Source of the DNA: a virus | Length of the DNA: 29,645 nucleotides | IMG/VR virus record: IMGVR_UViG_3300043548_000013 | Location: 1-29,645 of that record | Strand: one strand, 5' to 3' | Part shown: positions 7,721 through 27,483 of the stretch, piece after piece | How positions within the stretch are numbered: position 1 is the first letter of the stretch | Layout of the letters: every line of letters begins with the position of its first letter | Made by a program: the position numbers and the translations under genes | The notes under the pieces: generated by a model | Database searches by the model: none | Told to the model about the DNA's origin: nothing | The model's input: the letters and a program-made list of their open reading frames with translations, nothing else

Positions 7721-8020
7721 ATGGCGAATATTAAATGTTTGAAGTTAATCAGTGGTGACGAGGTCATCGCCGACATCGATGAAGGAATTGAAGGTCTTGT
7801 TATCCTGAGAAAACCATTACAGATTATGATGATTCCAAATCAGAATAATCAGTTCGGTATTGGTTTGGCACCTTTCTGTCCGTATGCCAAGGACGATATG
7901 ATTCCACTTCGTTCTGGTGCTGTTCTATCCATTTTCGATCCAGAAACTGGTATGCTGAATGAGTATAACACTCGTTGCGGTTCTGGTATCGTTGTTCCTG
8001 AAAGTAAAATCATTCTATGA
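7721..8020 (+). CDS. small conserved phage protein, possible Sm-like barrel (99 aa)
   Basis: ATG at 7721 follows a GGAAGG ribosome site (the upstream in-frame GTG at 7712 lies inside that site). The protein begins 'MANIKCLKLISGDEVIADID' and ends 'GSGIVVPESKIIL', with 'APFCPYAKDD' in the middle. The beta-rich pattern with the 'LxSGDEVIAxV' strand recalls small Sm/Hfq-like proteins found in T4-like marine phages; this is from memory of the family and not proven. Such proteins might bind RNA. It overlaps the nuclease start by four bases. Confidence 0.6.
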   Translation: MANIKCLKLISGDEVIADIDEGIEGLVILRKPLQIMMIPNQNNQFGIGLAPFCPYAKDDMIPLRSGAVLSIFDPETGMLNEYNTRCGSGIVVPESKIIL

Positions 8021-8664
8021 AGAACTTAATTGCTGCTCTATTTCTATTCGCTCTGCCGACTGCTGCTAATGCGTCCCCCTGTGATCAGTTCTATCCGAAT
8101 GGTAAGGAAATCGTAGTCCCGAACACGGTAGTTCTTTGCAACTCTTTCTTTGCTACAGTCTACGATGATGCGAACAACGCAACGGTATTCTCCACTGAGA
8201 TTGCACAGGCACGTGTTGTCAAGGTTCCTCGAACTGATGACTTCCGCGCTGACAAGCGTATTGCTGACTCACCAACACCTGCTGATTACACCAATTCTGG
8301 TTACGATCGTGGGCACATGGTTCCTGCTGCTAATGCAGATGAGAAGCAGGAAATGTCAGATACATTCCTGATGACAAACATGACACCTCAGTTGCCATCA
8401 GTCAATCGCACTGCTTGGCGTCTACTTGAAGATCGCGTTCGTTCAGTCCCGTTCAAGTGGGTTGTAACTGGTGCGCACTATAGCAAGACACCAAAGCGTA
8501 TCGGCAAGTCAGGTGTTCCTGTTCCTGATATGCTTTACAAGGTTGCATTTTTCGAGAGTGGAAATGTTGCCGTCTATATCGTAGACAATCTTGTTCCCAA
8601 GTCACAAGTTTCAACTATGAAACTGGAAGAACTCGAAGCAAAGATTGGATATAAACTACGATAA
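8017..8664 (+). CDS. exported DNA/RNA non-specific endonuclease (NucA/Serratia type)
   Basis: 215 residues. Residues 1-19 form a Sec signal peptide (MKNLIAALFLFALPTAANA, with AxA before Ser20). The catalytic motif DRGH lies in 'YDRGHMVPAANA', with R98 and H100 matching Serratia nuclease R87 and H89. N130 in 'LPSVNRTAW' and E138 match the metal and support residues N119 and E127. C22 and C41 could form a disulfide in the periplasm. The mature enzyme would be a Mg-dependent sugar-nonspecific nuclease of about 22 kDa. A phage exporting such a nuclease may degrade host or competitor DNA outside the cytoplasm, or aid release through viscous lysate. Role is inferred; family assignment is secure. 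Confidence 0.9.
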   Translation: MKNLIAALFLFALPTAANASPCDQFYPNGKEIVVPNTVVLCNSFFATVYDDANNATVFSTEIAQARVVKVPRTDDFRADKRIADSPTPADYTNSGYDRGHMVPAANADEKQEMSDTFLMTNMTPQLPSVNRTAWRLLEDRVRSVPFKWVVTGAHYSKTPKRIGKSGVPVPDMLYKVAFFESGNVAVYIVDNLVPKSQVSTMKLEELEAKIGYKLR

Positions 8665-15657: not shown

Positions 15658-16776
15658 ATGCATAGTTTTATAAATTTCCTTACTGAAGCAGCAATTCTGC
15701 ACATTGAACACCCCTCTGATAGATTGTTCGATGGACCACAAGCAGCAAAGCATGCACTAAGAACATTGAAGCATGTTTCTGCTGGTAAAGCACCAACAAT
15801 GACTCGTAAGATTGACGACAAGATGTCGTTCAATGTTATTCGCAGAGCAGACGGTAAGGTTGGTGTTAAGTATAAGGGAACAGGATCCTCTTATAATTTC
15901 TCAGAACAAGATGTTGACACGCAGCATGGTCATAAACCATATCTTGCGCATCCACTTAAATTACTTCTAAAGCATCTTCCTAAAGTTATTCCGCATACTC
16001 CTGGTGAGTATCAAGGCGGATACATGTCAGACAGAGAATCTAGAGAACATGAAAACGGTAAGATCTCTCATACTCCGAACACTATTAAATATGCTGCTGA
16101 TGCTGATAGTCCAGAAGGTAAAGCACTGGCGAAGTCGAAAGTCAGTGCGGTAATCCATACAAAGATTACTTCTGCTGGACCAAAACCACTTACCAGTCTT
16201 GAGGGTTTCGGTCATCACCCAGACGTTCACCTAGTCCCGCATCTTGTTTCTAAAGATCACGCAGTTGTTCCAAAGGAATATAAGTCGCCTGCTGATCAAC
16301 ACCTGAAGCAAGCAGAACAACTCATGGGATCGCATGGGTTTGATCACCTTGGTGGTCACGAGCAAACTCTACGTCAGTATATCAACTCGACAGTTACAAC
16401 TGAAGAAACTCCATCGGCAGAGGGATATAAAGGTTATCTCCGTAGATGGCACCAGAAAAAGATTGATGCAGTTAAGACCGACAAGGCAAAGACTGCCAAG
16501 AAAAAAGTTATGGATGACATGGTTGATCATGTCTCCAAGAATCAAAAAGAATTCTATAAGACTCTAGAAATCCACCACCATCTGCAGCAAGCAACTAACC
16601 ATCTATCCAGAGGGTTGGATGCATTTGGCGCAGGTGGATTCCACACATCTATCGGCGGTGAAGCATCGGGTGGCGAAGGTCACGTCTATAATGGACTGAA
16701 GGTTGTCGACCGCGAAGGATTCTCTAAGGCGAATCGTGCACGTAGCGAAATCTTGAGAGCGAGCAGAGGAAAATGA
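15658..16776 (+). CDS. DUF6267-like protein with a capsid-targeting N-terminus
   Basis: 372 residues. The first ten residues MHSFINFLTE are followed by AA, matching the T4 capsid-targeting sequence cut by the gp21 prohead protease after L-x-E. The next part ('HIEHPSDRLFDG', 'TMTRKIDDKMSFNVI', 'GVKYKGTGSSYNF', 'GEYQGGYMSD') resembles a family widespread in T4-like marine phages (DUF6267, from memory). Its K-x-D-x motif and glycine-rich following strand recall nucleotidyltransferase or ligase motif I, though here it reads K51-I-D-D rather than KxDG. The C-terminal half is histidine- and lysine-rich. It is translationally coupled (ATGA) to the cytidylyltransferase-like gene. Preceded by a late promoter, so it is probably packaged in the head. 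Confidence 0.6.
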   Translation: MHSFINFLTEAAILHIEHPSDRLFDGPQAAKHALRTLKHVSAGKAPTMTRKIDDKMSFNVIRRADGKVGVKYKGTGSSYNFSEQDVDTQHGHKPYLAHPLKLLLKHLPKVIPHTPGEYQGGYMSDRESREHENGKISHTPNTIKYAADADSPEGKALAKSKVSAVIHTKITSAGPKPLTSLEGFGHHPDVHLVPHLVSKDHAVVPKEYKSPADQHLKQAEQLMGSHGFDHLGGHEQTLRQYINSTVTTEETPSAEGYKGYLRRWHQKKIDAVKTDKAKTAKKKVMDDMVDHVSKNQKEFYKTLEIHHHLQQATNHLSRGLDAFGAGGFHTSIGGEASGGEGHVYNGLKVVDREGFSKANRARSEILRASRGK

Positions 16777-17384
16777 GCGAAACGCATCACTTAACAATCG
16801 GAAGATTTGCTCCTGTTCATGCTGGTCATGCCATGATGATCAACAAGGTATTAGATGCAGCAAAACATGACAATGCAAAGCACACAATCCTGACAACTGC
16901 AACTCATGATGGTAACAAGAATCCACTGACACCAGAGCAAAAGGTAAAGCATCTTAAAAGAGCATTTCCTAGTGCGAACGTCGAAGCATTGAGTAAAGGG
17001 CATCCGACTCTGCTTCATCATCTGTCTAAGTTACACAGTCAGGGTGTGAAGAATATCGTTGTTCATGCTGGATCTGATAGAGCGCATGAATATCACACGT
17101 TGATTAATAAGTATAATGGAGTCGAAGGTCGTCACGGTCATTTTAATTTTGATTCGATCAAGGTTAAGACTGTCGGTGGAACAAGAACTGATGCTGACGA
17201 AGGTGTTGCTGGTGCGTCTGCTACTAAGATGCGCAAGGCAGCATCATCGGGTAACGAAAAAGCATTCCATGCCATGGCACCAAGTTCTATGTCGGCAACT
17301 CATAAACGTGAAATGTATAAAGACGTTCGTCGTGGTCTCGGGATTAACGAGTCCATCTCATTCAAACAATTTCTAGGAATCTAA
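16773..17384 (+). CDS. cytidylyl/nucleotidyltransferase-like enzyme (HxGH type)
   Basis: 203 residues. 'LTIGRFAPVHAGHAMMI' holds the HxGH nucleotide-binding motif (H16-A-G-H19). 'GVAGASATKMRKAA' is a version of the second conserved motif (I/G-S-x-T-x-x-R). This is the superfamily of NadM, tagatose- or glycerol-phosphate cytidylyltransferases and phosphopantetheine adenylyltransferase. The enzyme joins a nucleoside monophosphate from NTP to a phosphorylated acceptor. The last ten residues 'SISFKQFLGI' resemble the SFxxF capsid-targeting element seen at the N-termini of neighbouring proteins. It starts inside the DUF6267-like stop. Acceptor unknown. Confidence 0.75.
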   Translation: MSETHHLTIGRFAPVHAGHAMMINKVLDAAKHDNAKHTILTTATHDGNKNPLTPEQKVKHLKRAFPSANVEALSKGHPTLLHHLSKLHSQGVKNIVVHAGSDRAHEYHTLINKYNGVEGRHGHFNFDSIKVKTVGGTRTDADEGVAGASATKMRKAASSGNEKAFHAMAPSSMSATHKREMYKDVRRGLGINESISFKQFLGI

Positions 17385-18688: not shown

Positions 18689-18934
18689 ATGGGCGGACTA
18701 CTAACATACATTAAAGATATGATGTCAGACGGTGGTAATCCATCGACCAAACGTATGGTCGCAGTTGTTTCAACTATTCTTATTGCTGTTGGTTACATTG
18801 CCAATTTGTTCTGGGACTTCACCATCGAGGAGTTTATCTTCAACGGTGTGATGTATATTGTCATCGGTACTCTTGGTATCACTGGAGTTGAGAAGTTCGC
18901 TCCAAAGAAACCGACGAAAAATCCAGAAGAATAA
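18689..18934 (+). CDS. two-span membrane protein, holin candidate (81 aa)
   Basis: A strong AAGGAGAAAA ribosome site precedes the ATG. After 'YIKDMMSDGGNPSTKRMVAV' come two hydrophobic helices (about residues 24-42 and 48-66), then a polar C-terminus rich in Lys, Pro and Glu. This size, topology and sequence pattern are typical of proteins annotated as class II holins in T4-like and other phages. It lies directly ahead of the spanin genes, which supports a lysis role. A second candidate is encoded at 27480, next to the endolysin, so which one is the holin cannot be decided from sequence. Confidence 0.6.
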   Translation: MGGLLTYIKDMMSDGGNPSTKRMVAVVSTILIAVGYIANLFWDFTIEEFIFNGVMYIVIGTLGITGVEKFAPKKPTKNPEE

Positions 18935-18937
18935 ATA
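18930..18937 (+). promoter_or_regulatory. weak T4-late-like box before the spanin genes
   Basis: AATAAATA with TATAG following, one mismatch from TATAAATA, at the 3' end of the holin-like gene and 19 bases before the i-spanin start. Possible but unproven. Confidence 0.3.
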
Positions 18938-18955: not shown

Positions 18956-19471
18956 ATGTTCGGTATGATCCCACTACCATATAAGTTACTGGCAGGCGTT
19001 GCCCTAATACTTGGTGTATTTGTATTTGGTTACATGAAGGGATCTGCATATGCCGAAGCAGAACTTGCCAGATTCTCTGCGGAGAAAAGTGCGCAGGTTG
19101 CCGAACTTGAAAAGAAAAACTCAGAAATCAGTAACAATGTTGTTACCGAATATGTTGACCGTGTTAATACAATTAGGGAAAAAGAATATGTCTACCTTGA
19201 TCGCGCCAAAAACGATGTTCCTAGTCAGTTTGTTATGTCTAACGGCTGGGTGCACACGCACGACGCTAGTGCCACATCCGGTGATGCCGACCCCACCAGA
19301 AGTTCTGATGCGTCCCCCTCAGCAGTTAAAGACACTGATGCCCTCATCGGAATCATCAGAAACTACGCCATCTGCCAATCCAACGCAGTCCAACTCATCG
19401 AACTCCAACGATGGATAATTGAGAACAAGGCAGCAGTTGACGCAATGGCAAATGAGAAGAAAAAGAAATGA
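18956..19471 (+). CDS. i-spanin (Rz-like inner-membrane spanin subunit)
   Basis: 171 residues. An N-terminal hydrophobic helix ('LLAGVALILGVFVFGYMKG', about 10-28) is followed by an Ala/Glu/Lys-rich coiled coil (about 35-75), then a polar periplasmic tail. This is the layout of lambda Rz-type proteins. The decisive support is an o-spanin-like gene nested entirely inside it in another frame (19188-19418). The pair would bridge inner and outer membrane and fuse them in the last step of lysis. It starts after AAAAGGAAAATGAT. Its stop overlaps the next gene by four bases. Confidence 0.8.
   Translation: MFGMIPLPYKLLAGVALILGVFVFGYMKGSAYAEAELARFSAEKSAQVAELEKKNSEISNNVVTEYVDRVNTIREKEYVYLDRAKNDVPSQFVMSNGWVHTHDASATSGDADPTRSSDASPSAVKDTDALIGIIRNYAICQSNAVQLIELQRWIIENKAAVDAMANEKKKK
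19188..19418 (+). CDS. o-spanin (Rz1-like lipoprotein) nested in the i-spanin gene
   Basis: A 76-residue frame fully inside the Rz-like gene, one frame over. ATG at 19188 follows AGGGA (19175-19179) at eight-base spacing. MSTLIAPKTMFLVSLLCLTA is a signal peptide ending in a lipobox-like T-A-G-C22; Thr at -3 is less usual than Leu but Leu stands at -4. After the lipidated Cys, the mature part is proline-rich ('PHPVMPTPPEVLMRPPQQL'), exactly as in lambda Rz1. Lysis would need this outer-membrane lipoprotein to contact the i-spanin. The longer open frame from 19050 has no ribosome site and is not the start. Confidence 0.75.
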   Translation: MSTLIAPKTMFLVSLLCLTAGCTRTTLVPHPVMPTPPEVLMRPPQQLKTLMPSSESSETTPSANPTQSNSSNSNDG

Positions 19472-21927
19472 ACGAAGATCTAAGAACTTGGTTTCGTCAG
19501 AAGTGGGTCCGAATGGACACCAAAGGCAAAATCAAGGGTCCATGTGCTAGAGAGGATGGCGAGGGTAAACCTAAATGCCTACCTGCTGCCAAGGCAAGAT
19601 CGATGTCAAAACAAGATAGAGCAACTGCTGCTCGTAGAAAAAGAAGAGAAGATCCAGTTGCTGATCGTAGAGGAAAAGGAAACAAACCTGTCATGGTAAA
19701 CACTGAAGAATTTATGATGGAAGGTAATGAACCTACTAATCCATCTCTATGGTCAAAAGCAAAGTCTTTGGCGAAGAAGAAGTTTGACGTTTATCCATCA
19801 GCATATGCTAATGGTTGGGCAGCAAAGTATTATAAGTCTAAGGGTGGTGGATGGAAGTCTGTCAGTGAAGAATCAGTTGACGAGGCATGCTGGAAGGGAT
19901 ACAAGCGTGTCGGCATGAAGAAAAAAGGCGACAGAATGGTTCCTAATTGTGTTCCTGAAGCAACAGATATTATTGCAAAGGCAAAGGCAAAACTTGCTGA
20001 AGCAGACTCTAAGAAGTATCCTAGAGAGGGATTCCCAGAAGAAGGTGACTACGGTTATCACCCAAATCCTGGTCTGAAACCACAAGAGAGCGACAAAGAC
20101 GAAGATATGGATGTCGCATACAAGAAAGCAACTGAGAAAGAGGGTCGCAGACCATTGAACGCAAAGATTACTGAAGGCGAAGATATGCCATGGCATGAAG
20201 ATCCAAAGAATCCAACTCGTAAGACTGGTGAACGCAAGGATCAATACGGCAACAAGGTAAAGAATGTTGCTAAGCATCTCGCTAAGAAAGCGATGAAGGC
20301 ATACGAAGAAACTGAAATTGACGAAGGCGTGACCAATCCAGAAATCAAGAAAGCATATGCTAATCTTCTAAAAACTCCTGGTGGTTCTCCCGAGCGCAAA
20401 TCTGCTATCCGTCGTTACAAGAGTCTTCGTCAGAATGCTGTCAAGGAAGCGGCAGAACTCGAAGAAAAGTGGATGGTGAAGAAGGGAACCGAAGTTGTTT
20501 CCACTCACAAGACCAAGGACGAAGCAGATGTCAAGGCAATGAAGCATCCTCTCTATAAGGTTTATGCCAAGGAAGAAACTGAGCACAATAACTGTGGCAC
20601 ACCTGACTGCTGCGGCGAATGTGATACAGCAATCGAAGAAGCATACGGTATGTGGAAGGTAGACTTCCCTAAGCAACATGCTGGTAAGGCAGTCGCTGCT
20701 GGTTCGGTTCACGTCAAGGCGCAGAACACTGCTCATGCTCACAAGGTTGCAGCAAAGAGAGTCGGCGTTGATCATAAGGTGTTCAAGTCGAAGGTTACTA
20801 AGTCGAGTATTCTTCCTGAAGAACTCGGCAAGGACAACGAATGGGGTCGCCCAGAACTACGCAAGAAGTTTGCTGCTATGACTCCAGGTCAAGAGTCTAT
20901 GGCAGCAGATAAGATTCCTTCGTTCGATCCACGTTACGACGATGTAACTACTCAATACTGTGGTGGTATCAGAGAAGGTTATCTTGCTGAGATTTCTGCG
21001 AAGGGTGCAGAGGCACGTGCTAAATTCCAAGCAAAAATCCAAAAGACTCTGAACGATCCTGCTAAGATTGCGAAGGCAAAGAAAGCACTTGCTAAGAAAG
21101 CAAAGATCGAGAAGGAAAAAGAACCACCGCATCTGGTAATGCAACTGCGTAAGGCAGTAAGCATTGGATCAAAGGTTCACTTCCAAGACGGTAAGCATCA
21201 CACAATTGCGCCTAACCATGCTGATGTATTCATGCACAAATATAACTCTGCCAAGTCTTCCATCGAAAAGGAAGCACTGCAGAAGCGTGCTCATAAATCA
21301 CACTCAGAATTTATGAAGGTTATTGCTGAAGAAGTTGAAACGCCACAAGGCAATGGTCCAGAGTATGATACTCACAAGGGAAACGGTGGTCACATCGGAA
21401 CTGTTGAAGCATCACATGAAGATATGCGTTTCGGGGATGTTGATAGTGAAGAACTATATGCAGAACTCGAGAAAGATGTAGAAACCCTAGGATGGGAAGA
21501 TATCGTCGATCTTTATGACCCAGAAGAAATTGAATACGAAGATGACGAGGAAGAAGATGACGATGAAGAATGTGGTTGCGGCGAGATGTCAGAAGCAATC
21601 ACACCTGCTGGTCGTCTGAAGAAAAAGTTTAATGCAATGCGCACAAAGAGTCGTCGTATGATGGCACGTAACATTGCAATTAAGCGTGTCTCGACACCAG
21701 AAAAAATTAAAGCACGTTCAGTTCGTACTGCTCGTCGCATGGTTTACAAGAGACTACTTCGCAACCGCGATATCTCGACAGTATCAGCGGCAGAAAAGAC
21801 AAGAATCGAAGCACAAATTAAGCGCATGGCGCCAATGGTTGCTCGTCTTTCTGTCAGAGTTATGCCACAGGTTCGTAAACTCGAGCAGTCGAGAATTAAG
21901 AACAGCAGAATGAGAAAGAAGAAATAA
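19468..21927 (+). CDS. modular basic head polyprotein A (DUF5872 N-terminal module)
   Basis: 819 residues of linked small modules with no single enzyme fold. Residues 1-65 are a DUF5872-like module ('LRTWFRQKWVRMD', 'KCLPAAKARSMSK'). 'SLWSKAKSLAKKKFDVYPSA' starts at residue 93 and 'ACWKGYKRVGMKKKGDRMVP' at residue 140. Others begin near 332 and 393, with a Cys-rich linker (376-385) and an acidic run (684-701). The C-terminus (713-819) is Arg/Lys-rich and probably binds nucleic acid. Junctions fit the T4 gp21 rule of cutting after (I/L/V)-x-E: VDE139|A, VPE164|A, LAE178|A, ITE236|G, IDE286|G, IEE391|A, IRE503|G and MSE709|A. I infer a polyprotein trimmed in the prohead to release internal peptides. 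Arginine codons are largely AGA near the start. Confidence 0.65.
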   Translation: MNEDLRTWFRQKWVRMDTKGKIKGPCAREDGEGKPKCLPAAKARSMSKQDRATAARRKRREDPVADRRGKGNKPVMVNTEEFMMEGNEPTNPSLWSKAKSLAKKKFDVYPSAYANGWAAKYYKSKGGGWKSVSEESVDEACWKGYKRVGMKKKGDRMVPNCVPEATDIIAKAKAKLAEADSKKYPREGFPEEGDYGYHPNPGLKPQESDKDEDMDVAYKKATEKEGRRPLNAKITEGEDMPWHEDPKNPTRKTGERKDQYGNKVKNVAKHLAKKAMKAYEETEIDEGVTNPEIKKAYANLLKTPGGSPERKSAIRRYKSLRQNAVKEAAELEEKWMVKKGTEVVSTHKTKDEADVKAMKHPLYKVYAKEETEHNNCGTPDCCGECDTAIEEAYGMWKVDFPKQHAGKAVAAGSVHVKAQNTAHAHKVAAKRVGVDHKVFKSKVTKSSILPEELGKDNEWGRPELRKKFAAMTPGQESMAADKIPSFDPRYDDVTTQYCGGIREGYLAEISAKGAEARAKFQAKIQKTLNDPAKIAKAKKALAKKAKIEKEKEPPHLVMQLRKAVSIGSKVHFQDGKHHTIAPNHADVFMHKYNSAKSSIEKEALQKRAHKSHSEFMKVIAEEVETPQGNGPEYDTHKGNGGHIGTVEASHEDMRFGDVDSEELYAELEKDVETLGWEDIVDLYDPEEIEYEDDEEEDDDEECGCGEMSEAITPAGRLKKKFNAMRTKSRRMMARNIAIKRVSTPEKIKARSVRTARRMVYKRLLRNRDISTVSAAEKTRIEAQIKRMAPMVARLSVRVMPQVRKLEQSRIKNSRMRKKK

Positions 21928-21928
21928 G

Positions 21929-22207
21929 ATGCTATCATTCAAAGAATTTATCGCTGAGGCGACATATCAGGGGAAGAAGGTTCCTCTTAACAAACCAATG
22001 GCAGGTGACGTTAAGAAGTCGAAGGTCTACGTTGATCCGGATGGGGACGGCAAGGCGCAGAAGGTAAACTTCGGCGACAAGAAACTGTCGATCAAGAAGC
22101 ATATTCCTAACCGCAAGAAGTCATATTGTGCACGTTCTGGCGGTCAGGGTAATCTAACAGATAAAACATCAGCGAACTATTGGTCGCGTAGAGCATGGGA
22201 TTGTTAA
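21929..22207 (+). CDS. small basic head protein with capsid-targeting N-terminus (92 aa)
   Basis: The N-terminus MLSFKEFIAE followed by A closely matches the T4 internal-protein capsid-targeting signal (for example MKTYQEFIAE|A of the IP proteins), so gp21-type cleavage after E10 is likely. The mature 82 residues are basic: 'KKSKVYVDPDGDGKAQKVNF', then 'KKSYCARSGG' and 'DKTSANYWSRRAWDC'. This resembles a small domain frequent in aquatic T4-like phages. Its job is unknown; packaging with DNA and injection are inferred. It begins one base after the polyprotein stop. Confidence 0.65.
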   Translation: MLSFKEFIAEATYQGKKVPLNKPMAGDVKKSKVYVDPDGDGKAQKVNFGDKKLSIKKHIPNRKKSYCARSGGQGNLTDKTSANYWSRRAWDC

Positions 22208-22208
22208 T

Positions 22209-22646
22209 ATGGATGAATTGAATACAGCAATGAAGATTGTGCTCGCGAATACTTTCGCAATGTATTTCAAGGCACACGGGCATCACTGGAATGTTGAAGG
22301 TAAAGACTTCTCCCAGATGCACGATTTCTTTGCTGGATTATACGAAGAACTTTTTGCTGCAGTAGATAAAATTGCTGAAGAGATTCGTGCTCTCGATGAC
22401 TATGCTCCATACAATATGACCGAACTATCATCAATGACAACAGTAAAAGAATCAAATATCTTTGGGGTTGATGTTGCTGGTATGCTTGCTGATTTGATTG
22501 ATGCAAATGCTTCTGTCATTGAAGCATTAAACTCTGCGCACAAATTGGCAGACGCAGAAGGCAATCGCGGACTGGTTAATTTATTAGAAGAACGTCTAGA
22601 TGTTCACGCAAAACATGCGTGGATGCTGCGCGCCACCTCTAAATAA
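22209..22646 (+). CDS. Dps-like ferritin-fold protein
   Basis: 145 residues. 'FKAHGHHWNVEGKDFSQMHD' (about 20-39) and 'VDKIAEEIRALDD' (52-64) are the Dps signature. H26, H38, D53 and E57 align with E. coli Dps ferroxidase residues H51, H63, D78 and E82. The position of D67 is Ala42, so one metal ligand seems lost, which may weaken iron oxidation. There is no basic N-terminal tail of the kind that lets E. coli Dps bind DNA. The dodecamer would store iron or remove peroxide. It is the third redox-related phage gene here after the peroxiredoxin and Fe(II) oxygenase, but lies among head genes. Confidence 0.85.
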   Translation: MDELNTAMKIVLANTFAMYFKAHGHHWNVEGKDFSQMHDFFAGLYEELFAAVDKIAEEIRALDDYAPYNMTELSSMTTVKESNIFGVDVAGMLADLIDANASVIEALNSAHKLADAEGNRGLVNLLEERLDVHAKHAWMLRATSK

Positions 22647-22647
22647 T

Positions 22648-22655
22648 TATAAATA
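22648..22655 (+). promoter_or_regulatory. T4-type late promoter (TATAAATA)
   Basis: Exact octamer two bases after the Dps stop, 27 bases before the next start; a GAGGGAA ribosome site follows. Drives polyprotein B and probably genes beyond. Confidence 0.75.
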
Positions 22656-22682: not shown

Positions 22683-24557
22683 ATGAGTCTTGAACAAACA
22701 ATTAGAGATACGGTGATGCTAGAAAGCATGGACCTAGATGCTCGTCTGCAGCAACTAGTTCGTGCTGGTCTGATGCCATCGAACACTCTGCCTCTGCTTC
22801 GTAAAGCGATCGCAAAGGTTCAGGGTGGTATGTCACTGCAAGGTCCAGAGCGTGATGTAATGGCAACATTCATCAACACTATGATGTATATCGTTCTTGG
22901 TGATGACACTATCTTCAATAAGGCACGTGCTGGTGCAAAGAACTATGCTACAGAAGAAGTAGAACTCGACGAAAATGCTAAGATCGTTGCTCATCTAGTA
23001 AAGCGTTACGGTGACAATATTCGCAAGAGTCACGTTGTGTCTGCTGCTAATGACTTCGGCGTTGATGCTTCGAAACTTTCAAAGGCAGTTCGTAAGAAAC
23101 TCGGCAAGACTATGCTCGAAGCAAAAGAAAAGCAAGAGTATGACTACGAAGGTGACATGGCAATGTCGCAACTGAAGTCAATCATTGCTAACTCGCAGCG
23201 TATGCATGATATGTTGGGTGAAGATACCAATCTCCCTGAGTGGGTGCAGTCCAAGATTACTTTGGCAGAAGATTATATCTCAACCGCAAGCAATTACATG
23301 CAAGGTGAGATGAATGAAGAGCAGATCGACGAACTTTCAAAGTCAACTCTCGGGTCTTATGTTAAGAAGGCTAAGAACCAATTAAGTTCTTCAGATTATC
23401 ATGTTGGTCGTGCTGTTGGAGCACGCGAAGTTGGTCAATCTGCTAATTTTAGCAAAGAACTTGAAAACAAACTAGCAGCACGTGGTAAGAAGCGTTATCA
23501 TGGAATTGACAAAGCTGTCGGCAAGATGACCAAGGAAGAAGTGCAGATCGACGAACTCTCAAAGAAGACCATGGGTTCTTATGTTAAGAAAGCATCAGGT
23601 GCTGAACAACCAAAGAATGTAATGAGTCCAAAGAACGTTCCTTTAACAAAAATCGCTGCTTACCAAGGTGACAGTGAAACAGGACACTTCGGTAAGAGAT
23701 TCAACCAACATACTTATGATAAAGCAGAGCGTCTCCGTAAGAATCGTGAGACAGGCATCAAGAGAGCAGTTGATAAACTTGCGAAGGAAGAAGTCGAGAT
23801 TACCGAAGCATCAGTAGCAGATGTAGCAAAAACTGCACATCTACATGTTAGAGCAGGTAAGCATGACAGTATCCATACTGCTATTCAATCTGCAGTTAAT
23901 ACGCATTTCCCATCTTCGGTGCACTCTGCGGTAACACGTAAGAAGGTTGCTGCCCAAGCGTTGAATAAAATTCAATCGATGAATAAATCTAAGATGACCA
24001 AAGAAGATGTTGAGCAAGTCGATGAGATCTCGAAGGCAATGGCAGGTCGCTACATCAACAAAGCGAAAAACTCTATTGACCTGACTGCTTGGAGACAAGG
24101 ATACAAAGAAGCAGGTGCTGGTAGTCCTTCGAAACATATGGAAAAGAAACTATCAAAGCGCCATAAGGGTATCGAAACTGCTGTTAAGAAGTTGACTAAG
24201 GAAGAATCTGAAAACCTTGACGAACTATCGAAGGCAACTATGGGTCGTTACATCAACAAGGCTGCCACAAAAATGGGCAGTCAAGGTGTTACTGCTGGTC
24301 TGAAGATTGCTGCTGATGAAAAGTCAAGCAAGAACTTCAAGGATATGGGCAAGCGCGAAAAGGGTATCAAGAGAGCAGTTAACAAACTGACCAAAGAAGA
24401 TATTGATGCAGTAAAGAAAATGAACGAGTCTTACAAGACCGCATTTGATACTGCTCTTACAGAATATGGCATCAAGTCTCCCTCGGAACTTGATGAATCG
24501 AAACGAAAAGAATTTTTCAACTACGTAGACCAAGAATTTAAAAAGGGAGACAAATAA
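22683..24557 (+). CDS. modular head polyprotein B with four DELSK repeats
   Basis: 624 residues, Lys-rich. Modules are visible: N-terminal residues 1-95; 'YEGDMAMSQLKSIIANSQRM' (155-174) with 'NLPEWVQSKITLAEDYI', a module common in T4-like phages; four tandem repeats (214-286, 287-370, 445-508, 511-572) that each start (I/V/L)-DE-(L/I)SK-x-(x)-x-G-x-Y(V/I)-x-KA and end G-I-x-x-AV-x-KLTKE; and a closing module 'YKTAFDTALTEYGIKSPSEL' (584-603) with 'KEFFNYVDQEF'. Candidate prohead-protease sites are VMLE14|S, LDE97|N, MLE146|A, IDE217|L, IDE291|L, ITE375|A, VDE448|I and LDE514|L, one exactly at each repeat head. I infer an internal-head polyprotein; no enzyme activity is suggested. Confidence 0.65.
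   Translation: MSLEQTIRDTVMLESMDLDARLQQLVRAGLMPSNTLPLLRKAIAKVQGGMSLQGPERDVMATFINTMMYIVLGDDTIFNKARAGAKNYATEEVELDENAKIVAHLVKRYGDNIRKSHVVSAANDFGVDASKLSKAVRKKLGKTMLEAKEKQEYDYEGDMAMSQLKSIIANSQRMHDMLGEDTNLPEWVQSKITLAEDYISTASNYMQGEMNEEQIDELSKSTLGSYVKKAKNQLSSSDYHVGRAVGAREVGQSANFSKELENKLAARGKKRYHGIDKAVGKMTKEEVQIDELSKKTMGSYVKKASGAEQPKNVMSPKNVPLTKIAAYQGDSETGHFGKRFNQHTYDKAERLRKNRETGIKRAVDKLAKEEVEITEASVADVAKTAHLHVRAGKHDSIHTAIQSAVNTHFPSSVHSAVTRKKVAAQALNKIQSMNKSKMTKEDVEQVDEISKAMAGRYINKAKNSIDLTAWRQGYKEAGAGSPSKHMEKKLSKRHKGIETAVKKLTKEESENLDELSKATMGRYINKAATKMGSQGVTAGLKIAADEKSSKNFKDMGKREKGIKRAVNKLTKEDIDAVKKMNESYKTAFDTALTEYGIKSPSELDESKRKEFFNYVDQEFKKGDK
23322..24398 (+). repeat. four diverged tandem repeats of 62-84 codons
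   Basis: Units at 23322-23540, 23541-23792, 24015-24206 and 24213-24398, with an unrelated module at about 23808-24014 between units 2 and 3. Each unit has a conserved 15-residue head and a conserved 15-residue tail around a variable middle. This suggests duplication followed by divergence or recombination between modules. Confidence 0.8.
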
Positions 24558-26588: not shown

Positions 26589-26951
26589 ATGATTGATTTA
26601 AATGATGATAATTTTTTGATCTTTGCCATAAAGAATTACGATAATCCCAGTTGTAATGGGATGTCGGATTTAGAAGAAGATTTGAAAAGATTTAAATATA
26701 TAAAACGATTGTTCAGACGTTACGAGAATACTGATGTGTTAAGTGAACGACTGGTGCTCAACCATTTGATAATTCTTTACAACGTATTCGGTAATGCTGC
26801 TACTAGAATGTTGTTCTACAAAATAGAGCAAAAATATTGGTCTTATTTGAAAACATTTCTTGTTTTCCTAAATAGAATGCCTGATAGTTCTTTGGTCGAA
26901 ATAAATTTGGATCAAACTATTGTAAGTAAATTAAGGGAACTTAATGTCTAG
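26589..26951 (+). CDS. conserved hypothetical protein of T4-like phages (120 aa)
   Basis: A helical protein with 'DLEEDLKRFKYIKRLFRRY', 'LSERLVLNHLIILYNVFG' and 'LKTFLVFLNRMP'. I recognise this pattern from aquatic T4-like genomes, where it is conserved but uncharacterised. No clear ribosome site precedes the ATG, so translation probably depends on the upstream gene, whose stop is one base away. The last eight bases overlap the next gene. The tight link with that gene suggests a shared complex, possibly in late gene expression or assembly; this is inference. Confidence 0.7.
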   Translation: MIDLNDDNFLIFAIKNYDNPSCNGMSDLEEDLKRFKYIKRLFRRYENTDVLSERLVLNHLIILYNVFGNAATRMLFYKIEQKYWSYLKTFLVFLNRMPDSSLVEINLDQTIVSKLRELNV

Positions 26952-27483
26952 ATTTGTTGATAGTTTAATTACCTATAGAATATTGCGTCTGCTGACTACA
27001 CCATTTGATCAGCAGGATGCATTTCGTTTAGGTATCATCGACAAACATGGTAATGTTCTTAAAAAGGAACGCGATCTAAATACTACAGAGGAACAAGAAG
27101 CATATAGTCTGCTCCACCGAATGGTGTTTCGTCTAAAAAGAATTATCGAAAAAGTTCCAATGGACAATAAAAACTTTCTCTCGTTCGCGACTGCTGTTGC
27201 GCTAGTAAGAGAAGGTGTAGAATATGAAGAAGATATTTTAGAGGAACTTTTCTACATGACACAAGAAAGAGAAGATGTCAAGGAATTGGCAGAAGAATTA
27301 ACAACTATCAAACTGAAAACATTTTCTCAGTTCGTGGAAGAGATGGGCGTTGCTGGTGGTAATGTTGCTGGTATCGGTATTGAACATCCAACCAAATCTA
27401 ATCAGGCAGAACCTGGAGTTTCAAAAGCTGCTCAGAAGAAGTGGCGCAAAAAGAATAAAATTATAAGAAGGAATGCACAATGA
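26944..27483 (+). CDS. conserved hypothetical protein of T4-like phages (179 aa)
   Basis: Opens 'RFVDSLITYRILRLLTTPF', followed by 'LLHRMVFRLKRIIEKVP'. This is a strongly conserved but uncharacterised pattern in aquatic T4-like phages. The C-terminal part 'LKTFSQFVEEMG' (about 137-148) looks like the SFxxF(I/L/V)xE capsid-targeting element but is internal, and is followed by 'GGNVAGIGIEHPT' and a basic tail. It overlaps both neighbours (eight and four bases). It may be a head-associated protein processed at an internal site; not proven. Confidence 0.65.
   Translation: MSRFVDSLITYRILRLLTTPFDQQDAFRLGIIDKHGNVLKKERDLNTTEEQEAYSLLHRMVFRLKRIIEKVPMDNKNFLSFATAVALVREGVEYEEDILEELFYMTQEREDVKELAEELTTIKLKTFSQFVEEMGVAGGNVAGIGIEHPTKSNQAEPGVSKAAQKKWRKKNKIIRRNAQ

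Follow-up and report, generated by a model that had tools for sequence, protein, structure and literature searches.

The locus described here, from an environmental T4-like phage, raises the question of what becomes of a long phage protein that consists of about a dozen small, exchangeable and apparently unrelated modules. The DNA in question (the window) is the whole 29,645-nucleotide stretch of IMG/VR virus record IMGVR_UViG_3300043548_000013, and the gene is the following:

19468..21927, + strand: polyprotein A (P0001), 819 amino acids (aa); open reading frame (ORF) confirmed by coordinates and length

Our comparative analysis indicates that P0001 is probably a prohead-core or internal-head polyprotein, cut by a protease of the T4 gp21 type at the junctions between its modules (beads); that cleavage takes place, which beads remain in the head and what they do there or in the host are predictions.

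The gene starts with an ATG that overlaps the stop codon of the preceding ORF (18956-19471), and purifying selection (ratio of nonsynonymous to synonymous substitution rates, dN/dS, 0.08 with L002 as the reference) indicates a genuine coding sequence. The initial annotation had described an 819-residue product of separate small modules; its coordinates and length were right, and relatives of the protein indeed gain, lose and swap modules. Such relatives were found in IMG/VR at 22 loci for polyprotein A and at 70 loci for its neighbour P0002. A Pfam search of P0001 revealed no domain above the cut-off and no recognised enzyme domain. AlphaFold2 predicted no continuous fold (mean predicted local distance difference test score, pLDDT, 50.8; predicted template modelling score 0.24), and the candidate cutting sites mostly lie within or beside low-confidence stretches, a placement that is not discriminating because more than half of the chain is of low confidence. 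Structure searches with this model returned only relatives of the same kind from a viral library, and weak helical matches from the PDB.

The bead map of P0001 is given below (pI, isoelectric point; the arrow marks a candidate cut).

19468..19722, + strand: bead 1, residues 1-85; pI 10.2, two Cys; phrog_727/23735 module
19723..19884, + strand: bead 2, residues 86-139; YPSAYANGWAAKYY module, pI 9.3
19885..19959, + strand: bead 3, residues 140-164 (25 aa); two Cys (ACWKGYKRVGMKKKGDRMVPNCVPE)
19960..20175, + strand: residues 165-236, segments 165-178 and 179-236; ends PLNAKITE↓, where slot B begins
20176..20325, + strand: slot B bead, residues 237-286; GEDMPWHED...ETEIDE↓
20326..20448, + strand: GVTNPEIKKAY bead, residues 287-327; pI 10.4
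20449..20640, + strand: slot C content, residues 328-391; AAELEE↓KWMVKK...DTAIEE↓
20641..20820, + strand: AYGMWKVDF bead, residues 392-451; pI 10.2, ends SSILPE↓
20820..20821, + strand: exchange slot A, empty in the window, recognised by comparison with relatives
20821..20991, + strand: residues 452-508; ELGKDNEWG...GGIRE↓GYLAE↓, two clustered sites
20992..21330, + strand: bead of residues 509-621; pI 10.1, ends VIAE↓; best-predicted region of the chain (pLDDT up to 84)
21331..21594, + strand: acidic segment, residues 622-709; pI 4.1, 35 D/E and 3 K/R, ends EMSE↓
21595..21924, + strand: terminal basic bead, residues 710-819; pI 12.0, 36 K/R

The proposal that the module heads are basic or Cys-containing was only partly right, as the beads span pI values from 4.1 to 12.0. 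The module of bead 1 is also present in cyanophage proteins encoded between terS and terL, and its counterpart in the relative L014, which carries in addition a nucleotidyltransferase bead (PF01909), scores as DUF5872 (PF19197; 33.2 bits, cut-off 27.5), a domain without a match in P0001 itself. Bead 3 appears to be the best-matching place for most of the 126 cyanophage records with 80-90% identity (the listed example H60 is 88.5% identical over residues 139-164).

All eight (I/L/V/M)-x-E↓(A/G) junctions proposed in the initial annotation are in place, and MME85↓G and VKE327↓A bring the number of [ILVM]xE↓[AG] sites in P0001 to 10. Shuffling of the sequence gave an expectation of 2.30 (none of 2000 shuffles reached 10) and a first-order Markov model one of 3.18 (P ~0.002); without the A/G rule, bare [ILVM]xE is not enriched in P0001 (16 vs 14.0 expected). 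Over 74 family members the enrichment of [ILVM]xE↓[AG] is 1.81x, compared with 1.22x in the other ORFs of their loci. Sites 164, 236, 286, 391, 503 and 709 are retained in the majority of relatives (site 164 in 13/18), sites 139 and 178 in only 6/16 and 9/16, respectively, and three sites outside the proposed eight (451, 508 and 621) are better conserved than either of the latter.

Comparison of the relatives between conserved flanks revealed three positions at which beads are exchanged. Slot A (after SSILPE) is empty in the window and in L004, and elsewhere holds six kinds of bead (L006, L009, L003/L008/L012, L002, L007) of 57-79 aa, which have an acidic lead-in at the start and end in [VLM]KE↓ or MATE; L009 has in this place the LSKxT bead that is characteristic of P0002. 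Slot B (after PLNAKxxE) is empty or contains the GEDMPWHED bead, as in the window, or an unrelated ALTRVTSG bead. Slot C (after LRQNAVKE) holds a bare ESELEE, a KRGLWDN bead, a VNIDKYADM bead, the latter two in tandem, a KWMVKK bead (window) or a KVYSVHVKG bead. The slot beads are nearly always flanked by [ILVM]xE sites. If each bead is bounded by a cutting site of its own, beads could be added, dropped or swapped by recombination without harm to their neighbours, which would explain the cassette slots; the slots themselves are observed in the alignments, and this selective reason for them is what we propose.

The coincidence of exchange points with the candidate sites was measured over 1231 swap or insertion/deletion events in 74 representatives, with the sites rotated within each protein (300 rotations) as the control. 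Block ends fell at [ILVM]xE in 53% and block starts in 36% of cases, compared with 18% for rotated sites (0/300 rotations reached the observed values), and the strict [IL]xE motif gave 40% vs 12% at block ends. The control motif [ILVM]xD did not coincide with exchange points (0.93x at block ends and 0.70x at block starts), [ILVM]xK gave 0.82x at block ends, and E without a hydrophobic P3 gave 1.4x. This test superseded a metaplot of the boundaries of high-scoring segment pairs, which was enriched near motif sites but unclean, because every E of the same linkers scores. The distinct contexts found upstream of a given bead ended in [ILVM]xE for LSKxTxGxY (37/37), GVTNPEIK (7/7), YGMWKVDF (10/12), ALTRVTSG (4/4) and the terminal bead (15/18), and for the terminal bead alone (80 loci) P1 was E and P1' was A/G in 31 of 32 distinct contexts; the relatives have common ancestors, so these contexts should not all be counted as independent events. 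On the basis of such comparisons the modules of P0001 are separate, exchangeable units.

Exchange at these positions would also be expected of a multidomain virion or DNA-binding protein that stays uncut, with acidic xxE stretches acting only as flexible linkers and as points of recombination; their likeness to gp21 sites would then follow from the abundance of E in linkers. The linkers are E-rich, E in general is 1.4x enriched near breakpoints, and helix caps could account for some DELSKxT junctions. However, E with a hydrophobic P3 is enriched 2-3x, this P3 is conserved ahead of unrelated heads, and the phages have a protease from a family with established (L/I)xE specificity; we consider an uncut protein improbable.

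Single and shuffled modules, which the initial annotation had suggested looking for in other phages, were both found. The terminal basic bead stands alone in genes of ~145 aa that start with MYSFKELM or similar (a targeting-like leader) and have DUF6267-like and NMNAT-like genes next to them; S-CREM2 gp156 is a free-standing version of the nucleotidyltransferase bead found in the L014 polyprotein (E 1e-33); and S-CREM2 gp160 holds the family of the N-terminal module of P0001 (phrog_727 profile, 9e-49 for gp160 and 8.9e-21 for P0001). In the distant single-bead genes (L193-L208) P3 is often T (T-x-E↓A and not (I/L)-x-E↓A), perhaps reflecting a different protease preference. One compact cluster (L196:1541-5020) looks like an internal-protein gene cassette: it comprises a DUF6267-like gene, a single terminal bead, an NMNAT-like gene and two small genes, and the majority of these products have an N-terminus of the targeting-like type.

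The proteome of purified S-CREM2 virions is reported to contain gp136, gp137, gp154, gp155, gp156 and gp160 (PMC10665884). Among these, gp137 is a multi-site protein with a DUF6321 bead at its end and gp154 a cytidylyltransferase with the leader MKNFSSFLTE↓A. Candidate sites in this set include IEE59 of gp155, ITE26 and LRE213 of gp137, LTE10 of gp154 and ISE252 of gp160, and gp23 has LTE56. Residues 17-70 of gp160 (L128:6343-7236) match phrog_696 ('major head protein') and resemble the stretch of gp23 that follows the propeptide site (GFTGAAAPxGPxAGxDP); judged from this similarity, gp160, itself reported from virions, seems to imitate the N-arm of the capsid protein. The virion-abundant S-SZBM1_195, encoded near terS, was also considered and on examination is no bead protein.

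A T4-like head setting was apparent in the longer relatives. The gp21 protease (PF03420) is encoded in G001, G002 and G009-G014, and gp23 in most of them. The gene order in G001, G009, G010 and G012 is gp16-17-18-19-20-gp67-like-[modular gene(s)]-21-22-23, and the modular genes between gp20 and gp21 bear the same EEVEQTDE or EEVELDE junctions; the 548-aa product of the one in G001 has a DYEGDMA bead in common with P0002. By inspection, gp23 of the relatives has a candidate propeptide site ALFE↓ followed by A, T or D, where T4 has LTE↓A. The gp22 slot (gp21-gp23) is not the place of P0001, as complete relatives have their own gp22 there.

The genes that surround P0001 in the window include the following:

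15658..16776, + strand: P0004, DUF6267 protein; leader MHSFINFLTE↓A (shuffle P 0.001)
16773..17384, + strand: P0005, cytidylyltransferase/NMNAT-like; homologue S-CREM2 gp154 (E 1e-15)
21929..22207, + strand: P0003, single small gene, DUF6321-like module; leader MLSFKEFIAE↓A
22683..24557, + strand: P0002, second bead polyprotein, 624 aa; repeated [ILV]DE↓LSKxTxGxY heads

The N-terminus of P0003 (MLSFKEFIAEA) is identical at 7 of 11 positions to that of the T4 internal proteins IPII and IPIII (MKTYQEFIAEA; shuffle P < 5e-5). Throughout these loci, 54 of 1228 distinct N-termini fit the T4-like capsid-targeting pattern (1.6 after shuffling), and they are concentrated in the NMNAT-like, DUF6321 and DUF6267 groups. 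In P0005 a targeting-like motif (ISFKQFLGI) sits at the C-terminus and not at the N-terminus.

The position of the P0001 gene between lysis-like ORFs, away from the head cluster, in a phage known here from DNA alone, would suit a protein that is made in the cell and is unconnected with virions, such as an early host-takeover or DNA-metabolism factor. The capsid-targeting-like leaders of the neighbours, the modular relatives within the head cluster and the detection of module relatives in virions make this explanation very improbable.

It is rather unlikely, if clearly less far-fetched, that P0001 is a sacrificial scaffold of the prohead core, cut at the same sites, that shapes or fills the core while nearly all of its fragments leave and none is delivered. 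The core proteins of T4 do give multiple fragments that mostly exit (PMC9026906), giant phages have long propeptides that undergo several cuts and for the most part leave (PMC10052503), and similar modular genes occupy the gp67/gp68 slot. Module relatives have, however, been reported from finished S-CREM2 virions, and both the rapid variation of beads and the presence of enzyme-like ones (nucleotidyltransferase, PF01909) would be odd for a pure scaffold.

Several observations weigh against the assignment of P0001 as a cleaved head polyprotein. The control motif [ILVM]xK↓[AG] is enriched 1.80x in the family, so that motif enrichment alone is non-specific, and motif counting is insufficient as proof because this control is equally enriched family-wide. 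Sites 85, 139, 178 and 333 are poorly conserved; [ILVM]xK is slightly enriched at block starts (1.22x); and ORFs outside the family gave 1.5-1.9x at [ILVM]xE breakpoints, a control that inspection showed to be unclean, as these ORFs include some proteins of the class that had gone unrecognised and that contribute part of the signal. P0001-type genes lie outside the gp20-gp23 cluster, and hence not in the gp67/gp68 slot, and no head genes are present within the 29.6-kb window, which is a fragment. The N-terminus of P0001 (MNEDLRTWFRQ) lacks a capsid-targeting leader of 10-19 residues with a gp21 site. Direct BLAST comparison of P0001 with gp160 was weak (E 0.003), the link between them running mainly via their common profile; S-CREM2 gp137 was detected by 4 unique peptides only, and the authors of that study state that carry-over in CsCl purification cannot be excluded (PMC10665884).

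Weighing all of this, we still favor a gp21-cut polyprotein, and its maturation might proceed as follows. The 819-aa product would be synthesized late as a single chain of small exchangeable beads and would enter the core of the assembling prohead, as do T4 gp67, gp68, gp22 and the internal proteins, without the N-terminal leader of its neighbours. A gp21-type protease is then predicted, from the positions and conservation of the sites, to cleave after [I/L/V/M]-x-E at most junctions. Small basic pieces, including the C-terminal bead of pI 12, would most likely remain with the DNA and be ejected into the host, and other pieces, e.g. the acidic segment 622-709, would be expelled from the head. 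In T4, gp21 cuts after L/I-x-E, the internal proteins have leaders of 10-19 residues, replacement of the P1 Glu of IPIII by Asp prevents its processing, and gp22, gp67 and gp68 give several fragments that mostly leave the head (PMC9026906); because most fragments of the T4 core proteins exit, the cut pieces of P0001 need not be delivered cargo.

Like P0001, T4 gp67, gp68 and gp22 ('precursor to internal peptides') contain several (L/I)xE sites and yield multiple gp21 fragments, some of which are kept in the head as peptides, and it is the gp67/gp68 gene slot that modular relatives of P0001 occupy. The T4 core proteins have no exchangeable modules, whereas P0001 is an 819-aa protein encoded outside the gp20-gp23 cluster. 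With IPI, IPII and IPIII the locus shares small basic products and, in P0003 and P0004, an IP-like leader ending in (I/L)xE↓A, but P0001 is leaderless and would give many products per chain, and no sequence homology to the internal proteins (IPs) was shown. Since it lacks the N-terminal targeting leader, P0001 is not a plain IP homologue. The idea of a polyprotein cut in the prohead has gained comparative support from its modularity, gp21-type junctions and T4-like head setting, and the accompanying analogy with the T4 internal proteins is only partial, as the leader that defines them is missing. P0001 would work like a gp21 substrate and is neither a plain T4 internal protein nor a positional homologue of gp67, gp68 or gp22.

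The inner-body (ejection) proteins of phiKZ and SPN3US also belong to the head, where a gp21-related protease makes several cuts in them after xxE (PMC9026906, PMC10052503). Unlike in P0001, the additional sites there serve to fragment N-terminal propeptides, the motif reads S/A-x-E, and shuffled beads are not described in these papers. Polyvalent proteins of phages and conjugative elements are also long, mosaic and multidomain and are thought to enter the host with the DNA (PMC5512222), but they are giants made of enzyme domains. Pfam recognised no such domain in P0001, a nucleotidyltransferase bead does occur in the relative L014, and the junctions of P0001 resemble prohead-protease sites. 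Closest in content are cyanophage T4-GC_119-type proteins and S-CREM2 gp160 and gp137, which contain the N-terminal or Cys-Trp modules of P0001, or sister DUF6321 modules, with similar junctions, and some of which occur in virions; they are shorter, have fewer beads, are encoded between terS and terL or elsewhere, and are annotated as hypothetical or structural. No earlier description of a shuffled-module prohead-protease polyprotein or of a multi-bead internal-protein precursor was found in the open literature (subscription papers were outside the scope).

Among virion components, the internal head proteins of T4-like phages rank with the most poorly understood, and to our knowledge only a few have even been named outside T4. 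We see about equal grounds for and against a broader proposal, that T4-like phages of aquatic bacteria have an internal-head-protein cassette system, in which one chain of interchangeable beads, each with a prohead-protease site of its own at its borders, is packed into the prohead and cut there, so that every phage would deliver its own mix of small proteins together with the DNA. If this were true, many environmental T4-like 'hypothetical' proteins (DUF6321, DUF6267, DUF5872, phrog_727 and others) would belong to one system and could be read by a single rule, cutting after [I/L/V/M]xE. It would become possible to predict which small proteins enter the host with the phage DNA, the (L/I)xE protease would acquire a new function, that of separating the units of a chain of modular cargo, and the cargo could evolve through bead shuffling.

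Two motifs resembling T4 late promoters, both of which we treat as hints only, were noted close to the polyprotein genes:

18930..18937, + strand: AATAAATA, resembles a late promoter; precedes ORF 18956 and polyprotein A
22648..22655, + strand: TATAAATA, T4-late-promoter-like, 27 bp upstream of P0002

The window contains six ATAAATA motifs, a count not above chance. The heads of P0002 repeat the form IDE↓LSKxTxGSYVKKA, and a 682-aa relative of this protein, itself rich in such sites, is encoded by the isolated Caulobacter phage Cr30 (E 4e-9). By inspection, the two polyprotein genes are separated by a Dps/ferritin-like ORF (22209-22646), and an endonuclease with a DRGH motif and an apparent signal peptide (8017-8664) resembles a secreted NUC-type nuclease. 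The ORF at 26944-27483 (179 aa) ends with an internal KTFSQFVEEMGVAGGNVAGI...PG stretch plus a basic tail, which is reminiscent of the start of S-CREM2 gp160.

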